This document shows positions 1 through 46,879 of a stretch of 64,000 bases of DNA, one piece after another. Source of the stretch: Halobiforma lacisalsi AJ5 (GTDB lineage Archaea; Halobacteriota; Halobacteria; Halobacteriales; Natrialbaceae); the NCBI RefSeq assembly GCF_000226975.2, contig NZ_CP019285.1:2852001-2916000 (forward strand), read 5' to 3'. The notes beneath the pieces were generated by a model. The model worked only from the letters and a program-made list of their open reading frames with translations. It was not told the DNA's origin and did not search any database. The position numbers and the translations under genes are program-made. How positions within the stretch are numbered: position 1 is the first letter of the stretch; each line of letters opens with the position of its first letter.

Positions 1-408
1 CACTCCTGTCGCAATCGGCTCTGAGAGGGGTCCTCTCCCCGGGGAACGGATACCCCTCGAGAACGACTACCACCAACGAGGGAAGTATAATCGAATTATC
101 GTTGCAAACGCAACTCGGGTATTAACGTGCGAAAATCGGACACTATCTCGAGCGAAACCGACTCAAGAACGCTGTACACCGAAACAGTCGATCGAACGAC
201 GCGAAACAATCACGAGTTCGACCGCCGGACGGAAACCGTTTCAGCAGCTAATCCGACGTTCTCGACCACGATATGGCATGGTTGCCGGACGGAAACGATA
301 CAGAACGTTGAACGATCCACCGGTCACGGCTGTGATTCCGTTCCGGGCGTGAAAGACGAAGAGAACGAGAAGAAAACGACGGGAACCGAACCGAGACGGT
401 CGGCGCGG
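1..408. other. Intergenic region downstream of secY
   Basis: No convincing gene is seen. The reading frames here are shadows or too short and basic to be credible. The secY mRNA, on the minus strand, runs into a pyrimidine-rich stretch opposite positions about 355-395, with several short T runs. Such stretches can act as archaeal terminators, but there is no hairpin to make this certain. Whatever follows secY, often adk in haloarchaea, lies outside the window. Confidence 0.4.
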
Positions 409-43342: not shown

Positions 43343-43630
43343 CTACTCCAGGTCGTCGACGTCGACGGTAACGGAGACGCCGGTGACGTCACCGGAGGTG
43401 GCCGACTGGTTGACGTCAGCGACGTTGTTCTGCTGCGCGTTCTGGACCTGGTTCGTCGTCGCGTCGGCGAACGCGATCGATACCGCGATCGAATCGCCGC
43501 CGTCTACGCCAGCGAGGGTCTCGGCTGCCCCGCTGTCCTCGTGATAGGCGGCGGCCGTTCCCGCGAATCCCATTGCCAGTACACTGGCCATCAGTGCTAT
43601 CGTCAGTGTGATCGTAAGTGCGCGTTTCAT
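43343..43630 (-). CDS. Small secreted Q/N-motif protein (paralogue A)
   Basis: A 95-residue protein with a Sec-type signal peptide (MKRALTITLTIALMASVLAM to TAAAYHED) and a mature chain of about 65 residues containing QVQNAQQNNVADVNQ, then ATSGDVTGVSVTVDVDDLE. The Gln/Asn spacing and the tail are shared with the 185-residue protein at 44097-44654, whose signal peptide is also nearly identical, so they are duplicates. Function unknown; see the cluster finding. No cysteine is present. Confidence 0.7.
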   Translation of the reverse strand: MKRALTITLTIALMASVLAMGFAGTAAAYHEDSGAAETLAGVDGGDSIAVSIAFADATTNQVQNAQQNNVADVNQSATSGDVTGVSVTVDVDDLE

Positions 43631-43822
43631 AGTTGATCGTTATGAGGCACGCATCACACCGGCGATCGACAGCGGGAACGACGATCCGACAGTTGTTTGC
43701 TCCCCGGCAGATAGACACCGCCGTCTCCCCGCTGCTCCCGCTGTGACGCGTTACCCAGTCGTTCCCTATCAGGGAAGCCCACTTCAACCCGAAGAACGGT
43801 TTCGGGGAGAATTGGGCCATTA
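43631..43822 (-). promoter_or_regulatory. Long conserved 5' leader of paralogue A
   Basis: About 190 bp upstream of the start at 43630 align with the region upstream of paralogue B (44655-44852) in three blocks: next to the start (aggcacgcatcacac), a middle block (cccgctgtgacgcgtt) and a distal block of about 45 bp containing CCCGAA-ACCGTTC-TTCGGG on the minus strand, a 6-bp stem with a 7-nt loop. Most haloarchaeal messages have almost no leader, so this conserved leader is notable. Further left (43823-44096) nothing clear is seen. Confidence 0.5.
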
Positions 43823-44096
43823 GCAGGACTCTATCGACGCCCAAAGACCGACTGCGACAGGTCTCTGAACGAATTCGAGGTGATCGGTAGAGCGCGTTGA
43901 CACGATACTGGGCGTGCAATGGACGACGCGTCTGGACGGGGCGGGACGGGCGTCGGGCTCTCGCGACGACGCTGTGTGTCGTTCTCGATTGACAGTCGGA
44001 ACATACGGTAGCCACGGGCTGCGAGTCGACGGCCGAAAAAAGCAGAATCAAAATTCCGTTCGAGACGGATAGTCGGCGTGTGAGTATCAGTGAACG

Positions 44097-44654
44097 TTAC
44101 GTTTCTCCGTCGGTATCCTCATCGTCATCGTCGTCATCGTCGTCATCATCGTCCAGGTCGTTCTCCCAGTCGACGTTCACGTCGACGCCGGTGACGTCAC
44201 CGGTCGTGGCAGTCTGGTCGACACTGGCGATGTTGTTCTGCTCGACGTTCTGGACCTGCGTCGTCTCGGCAGCGGCGAACGCACCGCTCGCAGCCACCGC
44301 ATCGCCACCGCCGCCATCAGTCAGGGCTCCGCCAGCAGTGCCACCCTTCTGGTGGTCGGACTGACCCGCAGCGGCGGCACCGGAGCCACCACCGTCGCTC
44401 GCGGCGAACGCGTCGCCGGACTGGGCGACGGCGAGGGTGTTAGCCTCTTGCACGTTAGTGTTGTCCTGGTTTACAGTGGCCGTGGTGGTGGCGTCACCGG
44501 ACGACAGGTTCTGATCACCGACGCTGATGTCGATATTGATCCCGTCATCGTCGTCAGTGTCGTGGTTCGATGCCGCAGCCGTTCCGGCGAATCCCATCGC
44601 CATCATACTGCCGATCAACGCTACTGTCAGTGTAATTGTGAGTGCGCGCTTCAT
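44097..44654 (-). CDS. Secreted Q/N-motif protein (paralogue B)
   Basis: A 185-residue protein with signal peptide MKRALTITLTVALIGSMMAM. The mature chain has NVQEANTLAVAQ and QVQNVEQNNIASVDQ with the tail ATTGDVTGVDVNVDWENDL, matching paralogue A, plus an inserted Gly/Ala-rich region (SDGGGSGAAAAGQSDHQKGG) and a C-terminal run of Asp. The frame continues upstream to 44849, but this extra part belongs to the conserved leader rather than to a signal peptide. Function unknown. Confidence 0.7.
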   Translation of the reverse strand: MKRALTITLTVALIGSMMAMGFAGTAAASNHDTDDDDGINIDISVGDQNLSSGDATTTATVNQDNTNVQEANTLAVAQSGDAFAASDGGGSGAAAAGQSDHQKGGTAGGALTDGGGGDAVAASGAFAAAETTQVQNVEQNNIASVDQTATTGDVTGVDVNVDWENDLDDDDDDDDDDDEDTDGET

Positions 44655-44852
44655 AGTGGTTGTAGTGTCTATTAGGCACGCATCACACGGGCGGGCCGTA
44701 ACGAGATCCGTGGCCCACTCGGAGCCACACCTCGTCGGGGTAGGCACCGCCATCTCCCCTGGTCTCCCGCTGTGACGCGTTGCCCAATCGCCACACATCA
44801 CGGAAACCCACTTCAACCCGAAGAACGGTTTCGGGGAGAATTTGGTCATTAG
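44655..44852 (-). promoter_or_regulatory. Long conserved 5' leader of paralogue B
   Basis: Counterpart of the leader at 43631-43822. The distal block (about 44808-44852) contains the same CCCGAA/TTCGGG hairpin and the middle block repeats cccgctgtgacgcgtt. Both leaders also keep an in-frame open reading frame fused to the gene, with the common peptide FSPKPFFGLKW. Whether it is translated or only DNA/RNA conservation cannot be decided here. Confidence 0.5.
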
Positions 44853-45298
44853 AAGACTCGAGAGGCGGATTTAGTTGCCTACGGCGAGATTCCAGCCACG
44901 ACGAATGAACATCCGTTCTCGGTACGAGGGATCTATCGGCCCCGTTTGCGACAGTTACATCGGTTTCATACCGGATGCCGCCCCCGAAATACCGGCTGAA
45001 CGATCGTCAGTAGGTTCGTCGTCTCGGGAATCCTGACGATACGATCGGCGAGACACTTCACCGGAACGGAACACCGGCGGCTGCTGTCGCACTCGGAGCG
45101 GTCGACCGTTCCGAAGTCCTGCAATTCTGCCACGAGACAGTTTCTATCTAGTGGTCTCTCCGGTCCGTATTCACACCTTGTAACTGGAAGCCACCGGTTT
45201 CGGCCTGCGTACGCTCGACGTGGAACGAGTAGGCTCCTTCATATCGGAATCAACTGACAGATAACAAAGTCTGTCATCCGGATACGAAGGTTCACGCC
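44853..45298. other. Intergenic region before the long Q/N-repeat gene
   Basis: No gene is supported. This is the upstream region shared by two divergent secreted-protein genes and must contain their promoters, but I could not single out a TATA box with confidence. The last 40 bp (gataacaaagtctgtcatcc) are the most A/T-rich. Confidence 0.3.
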
Positions 45299-45304
45299 GT
45301 GGAG

Positions 45305-46879
45305 ATGCAGAAACAAACGACTCTCACGGCTCAAGTCAAACGAATCATGACCAACACGACGACGATACGTTCACAGTGTACGACGGTTCTTATGGCCTGT
45401 ATAGTCGCCTTAGCGATGGTAGCCGGCGGTGCACCGGCGGTTGCCGCGGGCGAGGACGCCGACACCGGTTCGGACTCCATCCACGCCCTCGAGGATGGCG
45501 AAGAGCTGTACCTGGTGTTCGGTGCTGACCTCGGCGATATGACGCTCGAGGAGTACATCGAAGCGCACGCGTCGGGCACCGCCGCGGCCGACGCGGAGGT
45601 CACCCAGTACCAGGACGTCAGCCAGGTCAACATCAACCAGCAGGGGAACGCGACCTCCATCTCGATCGACGGCGGTGAGGCAACCGCCGTCCAGGAGGCG
45701 ACCCAGCAGAACGACAACGTCCAGTTCGGCGACGGCTCTTCCTCGAGCGTCCAGTCGACGCAGTTCGAGGACGTCGGGAGCGTGACGGTCGTCCTCGGGA
45801 ACGGCGACGGCAAGCACTTCGACGGCTGGGGTGTCGCCGACAAGAAAGGCGACAAGGCAGACGTCGACGCCGATCAGGCCGCCGATGCGGAGGTCACCCA
45901 GGTCCAGGAAGTCGGCCAGCTCAACTACAACGAGCAGAACGTCGCCTTCGCGATCGCCGAAAACGAGAGCGAGGCCGTCGCCCTGCAGTACTCCGAGCAG
46001 GCCAACCAGAACCTGCAGCAGGGCGTCGCGAACGCTACCAACGTCTACATGGGCGACGGTGAGTTCAGCGACCAGTCCGCCCAGGCCTCTGTCGAACAGG
46101 GCCAGGCGACGGACCAGATGAACGTCAACGAACAGGACGGCGCGGTCGCGATCGCCGTCGGCAACAACAGTACGGCGACCGCGATCCAGTTCACCGAACA
46201 GACCAACTTCAACGAGCAGATCGGCGAGGCCGACGCCGCGAACATCATTGCCGGCATGCCCGGCATGAACGTCGCGACCGCCGGCTTCACCGGCGACAAC
46301 GGCGTCGTCCAGACCGAAAGCACGCTCGAGGGACTGCACGGTGACAAGGACGCGGACAAGGATCACAAGAAGGGCTCCGACGAGATCCAGACCGCGACCA
46401 CCGAGGTGACCCAGGAGCAAGGCGTCGAGCAGATGAACGTCAACCTGCAAAACACCGCGTTCGCGTACGCGACCAACAGCAGCAACGCCACCGCGCTGCA
46501 GTTGTCCTACCAGCAGAACATCAACGCACAGGTCGGATTCGCCGAGGCGCTGAACGTCTACGCCGGCCCCGGTCACGTCAACGACGGCGTCATCGCCTCC
46601 GAGACGACCAGCGTGACGCTCGGTGGCAACGACGTCGGCGGCGTCTCCGGAATCGCCTACGACTCCGACGCCAACCAGACCAACGACGTCGAGCAACACG
46701 CCACCGCGCAGATCGAGCAAGTTCAGTTCGTGACCCAGGAGAACGTCAACGAGCAGCAGGCCGCAGTCGCCGTCGCCGACAACGGCGGCAGCGCCGACTC
46801 CGCACAGTTGACCATCCAGGAGAACGAGAACGTCCAGTTCGCGTCGGTCGCCGCGACCAACGTCTGGGCCGCTTCGTAA
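45305..46879 (+). CDS. Secreted protein with five Q/N-rich (curlin-like) repeats
   Basis: An exported acidic protein of about 524 residues. Starts at 45305 (MQKQTTLTAQ) or at an internal ATG giving MTNTTTIRSQC; either leads to the signal helix TTVLMACIVALAMVAGGAPAVA. Five repeats begin near residues 96, 194, 260, 366 and 467: each has a strand like TQVQEVGQLNYNEQ, then alternating Ala (VAFAIAEN), then a second like ALQYSEQANQNLQQG ending in an NV. The Q-x3-Q-x-N-x-N-x-Q ladder resembles curlin repeats in style, though not in exact spacing. Between repeats lie Lys/Asp-rich spacers. No cysteines in the mature part. A cell-surface fibre or beta-solenoid is inferred. The divergent genes to the left carry the same motif. 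Confidence 0.7.
   Translation: MQKQTTLTAQVKRIMTNTTTIRSQCTTVLMACIVALAMVAGGAPAVAAGEDADTGSDSIHALEDGEELYLVFGADLGDMTLEEYIEAHASGTAAADAEVTQYQDVSQVNINQQGNATSISIDGGEATAVQEATQQNDNVQFGDGSSSSVQSTQFEDVGSVTVVLGNGDGKHFDGWGVADKKGDKADVDADQAADAEVTQVQEVGQLNYNEQNVAFAIAENESEAVALQYSEQANQNLQQGVANATNVYMGDGEFSDQSAQASVEQGQATDQMNVNEQDGAVAIAVGNNSTATAIQFTEQTNFNEQIGEADAANIIAGMPGMNVATAGFTGDNGVVQTESTLEGLHGDKDADKDHKKGSDEIQTATTEVTQEQGVEQMNVNLQNTAFAYATNSSNATALQLSYQQNINAQVGFAEALNVYAGPGHVNDGVIASETTSVTLGGNDVGGVSGIAYDSDANQTNDVEQHATAQIEQVQFVTQENVNEQQAAVAVADNGGSADSAQLTIQENENVQFASVAATNVWAAS

Follow-up and report, generated by a model that had tools for sequence, protein, structure and literature searches.

Within a 64,000-nucleotide stretch of the Halobiforma lacisalsi AJ5 genome (hereafter the window), a forward-strand gene codes for a secreted protein built of regularly spaced glutamines and asparagines, and two small genes, A and B, lie upstream of it on the opposite strand (Table 1). 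All three products had been predicted from the raw sequence to be exported and to share Gln/Asn ladders, and both the signal peptides and the ladder motifs were found in them: the quoted motifs are present in the translations, namely QVQNAQQNNVADVNQ in the product of gene A, QVQNVEQNNIASVDQ in that of gene B, with TQVQEVGQLNYNEQ and then ALQYSEQANQNLQQG in the forward-strand product ending at 46879. The big protein has a conserved N-terminal segment (ALEDGEELYLVFGADLGDMTLEEYIEAHA) and five units of fixed length, connected by linkers that are charged and variable. These units correspond to the five copies of a longer repeat in the original prediction, each resolving into a pair of half-repeats (QxxxQxNxNxQ), so that there are ten half-repeats in five units of about 54-60 residues. 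The QxxxQxN motifs are spaced by 27, 27, 28, 27 and 27 residues inside the pairs and by 39-77 residues from pair to pair. Against ten observed copies of each, 20,000 composition-preserving shuffles of the big protein yielded a mean of 0.43 copies of QxxxQxN (maximum 5) and of 0.04 copies of QxNxNxQ (maximum 2).

The big protein had been given as 524 residues long, which an in-frame ATG at 45305 makes possible, but the ATG at 45347, giving 510 residues, is the better start: it sits immediately 5' of the Sec signal peptide and is preferred because the upstream DNA, though conserved, differs in length by one nucleotide in some homologues. The start of gene B was likewise corrected to 44654. Both small genes are preceded by a leader predicted to be structured. 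RNAalifold returned no consensus structure for the alignment of small-gene leaders; the stem was tested as an explicitly specified pairing. An Rfam search gave no credible match. Covariation was observed in these predicted structures. Further upstream, a promoter-like pattern, probably BRE/TATA-like, occurs in just two copies in the window, one before A and one before B.

Table 1. Features of the five-unit and small-protein genes in the window
Feature	Position	Strand	Remarks
Small secreted protein A, 95 aa	43343..43630	-	One clear half-repeat; signal peptide same as in B
Half-repeat in A	43403..43459	-	TTNQVQNAQQNNVADVNQS
Predicted structured 5' leader of A	43631..43758	-	Stem same as in B leader
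Promoter-like element upstream of A	43782..43803	-	Pattern same as for B
Small one-unit secreted protein B, 185 aa	44097..44654	-	Signal MKRALTITLTVALIGSMMAMGFAGTAAA; two separated half-repeats; poly-Asp tail
Half-repeat in B	44199..44282	-	AFAAAETTQVQNVEQNNIASVDQTATTG stretch
Half-repeat in B	44415..44501	-	SGDATTTATVNQDNTNVQEANTLAVAQSG
Predicted structured 5' leader of B	44655..44787	-	5' block GGGCAACGCGTCACA pairs with TGTGATGCGTGCC, adjoining start codon
Promoter-like element upstream of B	44811..44832	-	GAAACCGTTCTTCGGGTTGAAG, conserved
Conserved leader of big gene, probably untranslated	45247..45346	+	GATAACAAAGTCTGTCAT, GGATACGAAGGTT; homologue upstream alignment
Five-unit Q/N-ladder protein, 510 aa	45347..46879	+	Sec-type signal peptide, about aa 1-34
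Repeat unit 1	45584..45751	+	Anchors Q89, Q116; AlphaFold strands 80-98, 101-107, 111-135
Repeat unit 2	45875..46051	+	Anchors Q187, Q214; AlphaFold strands 177-205, 209-235
Repeat unit 3	46073..46249	+	Anchors Q253, Q281; AlphaFold strands 243-271, 276-301
Repeat unit 4	46388..46564	+	Anchors Q358, Q385; AlphaFold strands 348-375, 380-406
Repeat unit 5	46694..46870	+	Anchors Q460, Q487; AlphaFold strands 450-477, 482-508

Relationship to known families

Searches of the window proteins against Pfam, NCBIfam and PDB sequences recovered no family, and the members are annotated merely as hypothetical proteins. The repeats had been likened to those of curlin. A curli-like design does stand, in that the proteins are secreted, show an alternating core with Gln and Asn ladders and come as two kinds of subunit, as do CsgA and CsgB, but the family is not curlin: the curlin model PF07012 (cut-off 20.7 bits) matched none of the window proteins at E<=10, is absent among the families listed for the homologues (74 of the big protein, 40 of the small ones), and found nothing in the organism's own genome. 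Membership was rejected; profile comparison with E. coli CsgA and CsgB using hhalign gave 0.1%. Genuine curlin-repeat proteins do occur in a few haloarchaea; one of them, serving as positive control, scores 152.8 bits against PF07012. The reported lack of a nearby CsgG partner extends to the whole genome (PF03783 search) and is uninformative either way, because the haloarchaeal envelope lacks the outer membrane that a CsgG pore would span. The spacing was rightly described as unlike that of the bacterial repeat: the curlin repeat of about 23 residues comprises N-x-Psi-x-Psi-x-Q, an XGXX arc and a second such strand, with QX10Q spacing (PMC10192328), whereas the half-repeat found here has 27 residues, X9 between glutamines and no XGXX. 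The small proteins contain NxAxVxQ, which is identical to a motif that the same work defines for one of the curlin strands.

The family also resembles the Fap system of Pseudomonas (FapC/FapB) in its fixed-length imperfect repeats, variable linkers, near-constant repeat number and conserved Asn/Gln. In FapC there are three repeats, each 38-39 residues long, with conserved Asn/Gln and separated by linkers of variable length (PMC12392863), in contrast to the five units here, each made of two 27-residue halves. Fap proteins adopt a fold of stacked Greek-key layers and are encoded in a fapA-F operon that includes the FapF pore. Profile searching of PDB sequences recovered no FapC up to E=10, and membership in the Fap family is not demonstrable. 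A match of that kind to PhoQ (E 0.0066) covers a Q/N-rich stretch only and was taken as chance. A half-repeat HMM search, covering the window small proteins, CsgA/CsgB and shuffled controls, was uninformative, probably owing to composition bias correction.

The suggestion of a beta-solenoid fared less clearly: AlphaFold predicts long strands, but the pTM values of the two models are 0.49 and 0.46 and no structural match is significant, so that a solenoid fold is only weakly indicated. In the full model, with pLDDT of about 74-92 across the repeats (the two-unit model reaches only 70), each half-repeat is one strand of about 26-29 residues with a turn between the halves. A Foldseek search of 350,542 chains placed FapC first for both models (E 1.0 and 0.35) and CsgA second and fifth, none of them significant. 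VIA-align matched CsgA (8c50) to the full model with Z 2.9, below significance, and for the two-unit model gave no match at Z >=2. Further matches below significance include SufB/SufD, ice-binding and bactofilin beta-helices, and the best E in a viral structure library was 0.0096, with no usable match. These insignificant matches may partly reflect Q/N composition.

Phyletic distribution, conservation and gene neighborhoods

The big gene is present in 62 of 293 Halobacteriales genomes and in this sample is confined to Natrialbaceae, the Haladaptatus group and a few others. Across 74 big homologues, with a mean identity of 39%, the invariant columns are mainly ladder Q, N, A and G, and the 62 homologues that parse cleanly have ten half-repeats with near-fixed spacing and variable linkers. 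Over 734 half-repeats, core-phase positions are 56% Q/N and 3% D/E, compared with 9% Q/N and 27% D/E at the alternate positions; on the predicted strands, one face carries near-invariant Q, N, A and V and the opposite face is acidic and variable.

The small proteins are one-unit or half-unit relatives with signal peptides of their own, and hhalign finds the small set homologous to a single big-protein unit (97.1%, E 5e-11); several small proteins hold two half-repeats set apart. Five-unit and one-unit proteins are encoded together, as originally proposed, with 38 small genes at 26 loci, one to four per locus, and a signal peptide common to all; at some loci there are several diverging small paralogues. 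The Sec branch keeps big and small genes together, the small ones upstream and divergent. The expected co-occurrence in other haloarchaea was borne out: a small gene is found in 49 of the 62 genomes with the big gene and in 4 of the 231 without it (p ~1e-38 before phylogenetic correction, a comparison confounded by shared ancestry). The four exceptions, weak small-protein matches in genomes G041, G100, G244 and G292, were discarded as false positives after inspection showed no such small protein.

Neighboring genes, which we take to code for a VAT-type AAA ATPase, LarC and sugar-metabolism enzymes, were also considered; LarC and the AAA ATPase were rejected as partners, their conserved adjacency being taken as shared gene order. 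The PGF-CTERM sorting model, which describes a C-terminal PGF motif, a TM helix and a basic tail in archaeosortase A substrates, is matched by nine of the 74 big homologues and not by the window's big protein, so anchoring is not universal. Paralogues in the Haladaptatus group carry Tat signals and have no small gene in the inspected flanks (about 1-5 kb). From these anchors and Tat signals, the system is by its sequence features a cell-surface one. Of 62 homologues, 39, 31 and 44 have an N-glycosylation sequon at the hairpin turn of unit 2, 3 and 4, respectively, and 3 and 5 have one in units 1 and 5.

Functional interpretation

The two gene types, one for a five-unit and one for a one-unit secreted protein, form a previously unnamed pair that appears to fall in neither the curli nor the Fap family and, by analogy with these, looks like the parts of a self-stacking surface fibre. 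We regard the chances as evenly poised that they form a two-part archaeal beta-stacking surface fibre that is functional-amyloid-like. Each half-repeat would be one long strand of about 27 residues and two would make a unit; units would then pack against one another, by their faces and at their edges, via their Gln/Asn ladders. Because every unit presents the identical ladder, in-register stacking would be possible within and between chains, so that the five-unit protein would serve as nucleator, cap or cell-proximal stalk while the small proteins add units and extend it into a fibre or matrix. In some species the five-unit protein would be tethered by its PGF-CTERM tail, and Sec (or Tat) would suffice for export since the outer membrane is absent. 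The principle would be that of CsgA/CsgB or Fap, realized with another repeat. The fuller proposal, of a new functional-amyloid-like fibre in which one unit is reused in an anchored or nucleating five-unit protein and in separate one-unit subunits, exported by Sec only and with the subunits under a conserved structured mRNA leader, is put forward tentatively, at slightly less than even confidence.

The fixed number of five units counts against a fibre, being what a defined protein, globular or stalk-like, would show. It favors a surface glycoprotein or adhesin that does not polymerize, with the five units forming one closed stalk or beta-domain per envelope-attached monomer and the small proteins acting as independent one-unit adhesins or matrix proteins. 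The PGF-CTERM anchors, the sequons at the turns of the three middle units and the Tat signals, which imply folding before export, point the same way; indeed, the Tat branch may not polymerize as proposed, because its members would be exported folded and have no small gene in the inspected flanks. In the Sec branch, however, the one-unit partners are genetically tied to the big gene, and an identical ladder in all units and in separate proteins exceeds what a monomer needs. We consider this account unlikely, if still one to be taken seriously.

The long strands and hairpins of the models, and the separated half-repeats of several small proteins, would also suit a polymer formed by strand donation, in which each half-repeat would complete its neighbor as a long edge strand or hairpin, much as in TasA or archaeal bundling pili. 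No immunoglobulin- or TasA-like partner domain is predicted, though, and to our knowledge in-register Q/N ladders are atypical of donor-strand polymers, which makes such a polymer improbable. Least probable is that these are secreted peptides with another job (halocin-like, or binding nutrients or metals), the Q/N repeats being no more than a halophilic low-complexity habit. The diverging small paralogues would fit, as would a Pfam Bacteriocin_IIc match of protein A (E 0.0012, 19.2 bits), but the latter is under the curated cut-off of 27.1 and recurs in no other of the 40 small members, no double-glycine leader was seen, and ladder spacing is invariant over the 74 homologues, unlike low-complexity drift.

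Returning to the fibre reading, an archaeal precedent for an extracellular, amyloid-like, beta-rich polymer is the Methanospirillum sheath protein SH with its beta-arch kernel (PMC10593813), which differs by description in being a single sheath protein with a cap domain that forms hoops, with neither Q/N repeats nor small partners. Congo red and thioflavin T both stain the extracellular biofilm matrix of Haloferax volcanii (PMC4180959), a property that need not come from this family given its narrow range in our sample.

Detailed knowledge of functional amyloids comes from Gram-negative bacteria, which need an outer-membrane pore and accessory proteins for export. If our reading is true, a Sec-only Q/N-ladder system of two size classes would show how fibres can be built in molar salt without outer-membrane machinery. 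The genes, conserved family-wide, are defined candidates for the composition of haloarchaeal biofilm matrices, and the ladder, invariant in five-unit and one-unit proteins alike, opens the stacking hypothesis to testing with point mutants.

Repeat architecture of the big protein

The original prediction, which had suggested curlin-like repeats and an archaeal functional amyloid or surface fibre, was accurate in its observations: all three open reading frames and every motif it quoted are present in the window. The start codon best supported for the big protein is at 45347 (510 residues), with an in-frame start at 45305 giving the 524 residues first described. The protein contains exactly ten QxxxQxN half-repeats arranged as five pairs, with anchors spaced by 27, 27, 28, 27 and 27 residues inside the pairs and by 39-77 residues between them. 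Given that 20,000 residue shuffles yielded a mean of 0.43 and a maximum of 5 such motifs, these repeats are not a chance product.

The gene is single-copy in its genome, and the protein is present in 62 of the 293 sampled Halobacteriales genomes, nearly all from the window's own family and the Haladaptatus group; in nine plasmid records it is annotated as "hypothetical protein" or "PGF-CTERM sorting domain-containing protein". When 74 homologues are aligned, mean column identity is 39%, and the invariant positions consist almost exclusively of ladder Gln/Asn and small residues (Ala, Gly) of the repeats. Ten half-repeats can be parsed cleanly in 62 homologues; in these the within-unit spacing is, with few exceptions, 27 (28 in unit 3), and the anchor-to-anchor distance between units varies from 35 to 108. 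Across 734 half-repeats the core-phase positions are 56% Q/N and 3% D/E, as against 9% and 27% at the alternate positions, which indicates two faces, one acidic and the other of Q/N and small hydrophobic residues.

Small proteins, gene order and upstream elements

Proteins A and B are members of an extensive group of small secreted proteins that share the near-fixed signal peptide MKRALxITLTVAxIGSLMFMGFAGTAAA, past which two QxN anchors are the only near-invariant residues (40 diverse proteins). The cleanest examples comprise one complete unit, as in Haladaptatus-group genomes, where their genes lie elsewhere in the genome. When the profile of two big-protein units was compared with that of the small proteins, the match (97.1% probability, E 5e-11) spanned one unit; the same building block thus occurs five times in the big protein and once in the small ones.

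At the 26 loci where a small gene was detected, 38 such genes are encoded on the strand opposite to the big gene, upstream of it; one further candidate (locus L086) is co-directional with it. Co-occurrence in other haloarchaea, proposed as a check on the original prediction, was borne out, with a small-gene match in 49 of the 62 genomes with the big gene versus 4 of the 231 without it (p ~1e-38, shared ancestry not being allowed for); inspection of the latter four showed no such protein. No small gene was found in the ~1-5 kb inspected around the Tat-type paralogues of the Haladaptatus group, or detected at a few Sec-type big-gene loci. The genes otherwise conserved nearby encode LarC and a VAT-type AAA ATPase; we take these as shared gene order.

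The conserved element GAAACCGTTnnnCGGGTTnAAGT, a near-palindrome (GAAACCG...CGGGTTC), is found upstream in 60 of the 68 distinct small genes and is followed by a leader; the related GGTTTC recurs upstream of the big gene in many homologues. In the small-gene leader a 5' block, GGGCAACGCGTCACA, pairs with TGTGATGCGTGCC immediately 5' of the start codon. Across 36 leaders this stem has 82% standard pairs, changes on both sides in 34 cells versus 16 expected from shuffling, and stands far above slid controls. Compensatory replacements are seen from U-A to C-G (10/36 sequences) and from A-U to G-C (6/36). Both window leaders adopt it when folded (z -3.0 and -3.6). An Rfam search of these leaders returned no credible family. 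Haloarchaeal mRNAs are mostly leaderless. The big-gene leader differs by one base in length in some homologues, so what is conserved there is probably the DNA or RNA and not a protein sequence.

Features of the repeat-protein system and related loci
Feature	Coordinates	Strand	Remarks
Protein A	43343-43630	minus	small secreted protein
Leader of small gene A	43631-43758	minus	structured 5' leader, predicted fold
Promoter-like element GAAACCGTTnnnCGGGTTnAAGT	43782-43803	minus	conserved, near-palindrome
Protein B	44097-44654	minus	small secreted protein
Leader of small gene B	44655-44787	minus	structured 5' leader, predicted fold
Promoter-like element GAAACCGTTnnnCGGGTTnAAGT	44811-44832	minus	conserved, near-palindrome
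Leader of big gene	45247-45346		long, conserved; one-base length difference in some homologues
Tat-signal protein	L074 904-1719	plus	C-terminal tail of one half-repeat; window's own genome
Tat-signal protein	L075 1480-2121, reaching window positions 1-3	minus	C-terminal tail of one half-repeat; window's own genome
Genuine curlin-repeat protein	L157 3055-3789	minus	PF07012, 152.8 bits, ten matched stretches

Cell-surface location

The window's big protein has a Sec-type signal. The PGF-CTERM sorting model, whose targets are processed by archaeosortase A, is matched by 9 of the 74 homologues, and the Haladaptatus-group paralogues begin with KRRGYLKG-type Tat signals; together these place the family at the cell surface. 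Among 62 homologues, N-glycosylation sequons occur at the hairpin turn of unit 2 in 39 proteins, of unit 3 in 31 and of unit 4 in 44, compared with 3 for unit 1 and 5 for unit 5, the per-protein total being not higher than chance. Lys-rich tails are frequent in the Haladaptatus-group and related Tat-exported paralogues (L088-L105); several of these tails have a Cys at or close to the end. Two Tat-signal proteins of the window's own genome end in the half-repeats ESGDATTSTDINQSNTNVQ and ESGDARTNVDLNQSNTNVQ, possibly a docking tag onto a structure of the big and small proteins.

Relationship to curlin and Fap

The curlin label itself did not survive. PF07012 matched neither the window's big and small proteins nor 74 big and 40 small homologues, a meaningful negative since the same search detects genuine curlin repeats elsewhere among the haloarchaea (152.8 bits); comparison with E. 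coli CsgA and CsgB by hhalign gave 0.1%. The curlin repeat has QX10Q and an XGXX arc, whereas here a 27-residue repeat has QX9Q, in line with the differing spacing already remarked upon, and the reported lack of a nearby CsgG partner extends to the entire genome. Genuine curlin-repeat proteins, with an acidic 19-residue repeat (NDADVDQxNxAxVxQDGxN), occur in 3 of the 293 genomes (loci L157, L167 and L168), two of which (G237 and G246) also have the big-protein system. A secreted tandem-repeat protein at L169 (QQQQDVDQxNDATVYTGPGSGDVDLEQNNDNHQHQ) is a possible further Q/N-ladder variant.

The AlphaFold2 model of the full big protein (74 homologues) has pLDDT ~74-92 in the repeat units, low-confidence linkers and a global pTM of 0.49, each half-repeat being mostly one strand of ~27 residues; with units 2-3 modelled alone (pLDDT 70, pTM 0.46) the first half-repeat is split into three strands. 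Foldseek searches of PDB with both models found no significant match. The non-significant top match for both was the Pseudomonas functional amyloid FapC, with CsgA entries ranked second for the full model and fifth for the two-unit model, whose remaining matches were mostly beta-helix or solenoid proteins; this ranking is suggestive only, as such scores can be fed by Q/N composition. Fap shares the design of fixed repeats, variable linkers and conserved Asn/Gln but differs in repeat number and length, and we do not assign the big protein to it.

Proposed assembly

As the same ladder recurs in all units of co-encoded, exported long and short proteins, the simplest account is that units of different chains would stack upon one another, much as curli and Fap do, with the five-unit protein perhaps serving as nucleator, cap or anchor and the small proteins as extenders of the stack. 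A surface protein that does not polymerise appears rather unlikely to us, yet stays a serious rival, mainly because the unit number is fixed and paralogues are exported via Tat. Among single explanations we rank an archaeal fibre of the functional-amyloid type highest; it is testable, and we would give it roughly an even chance of being correct.
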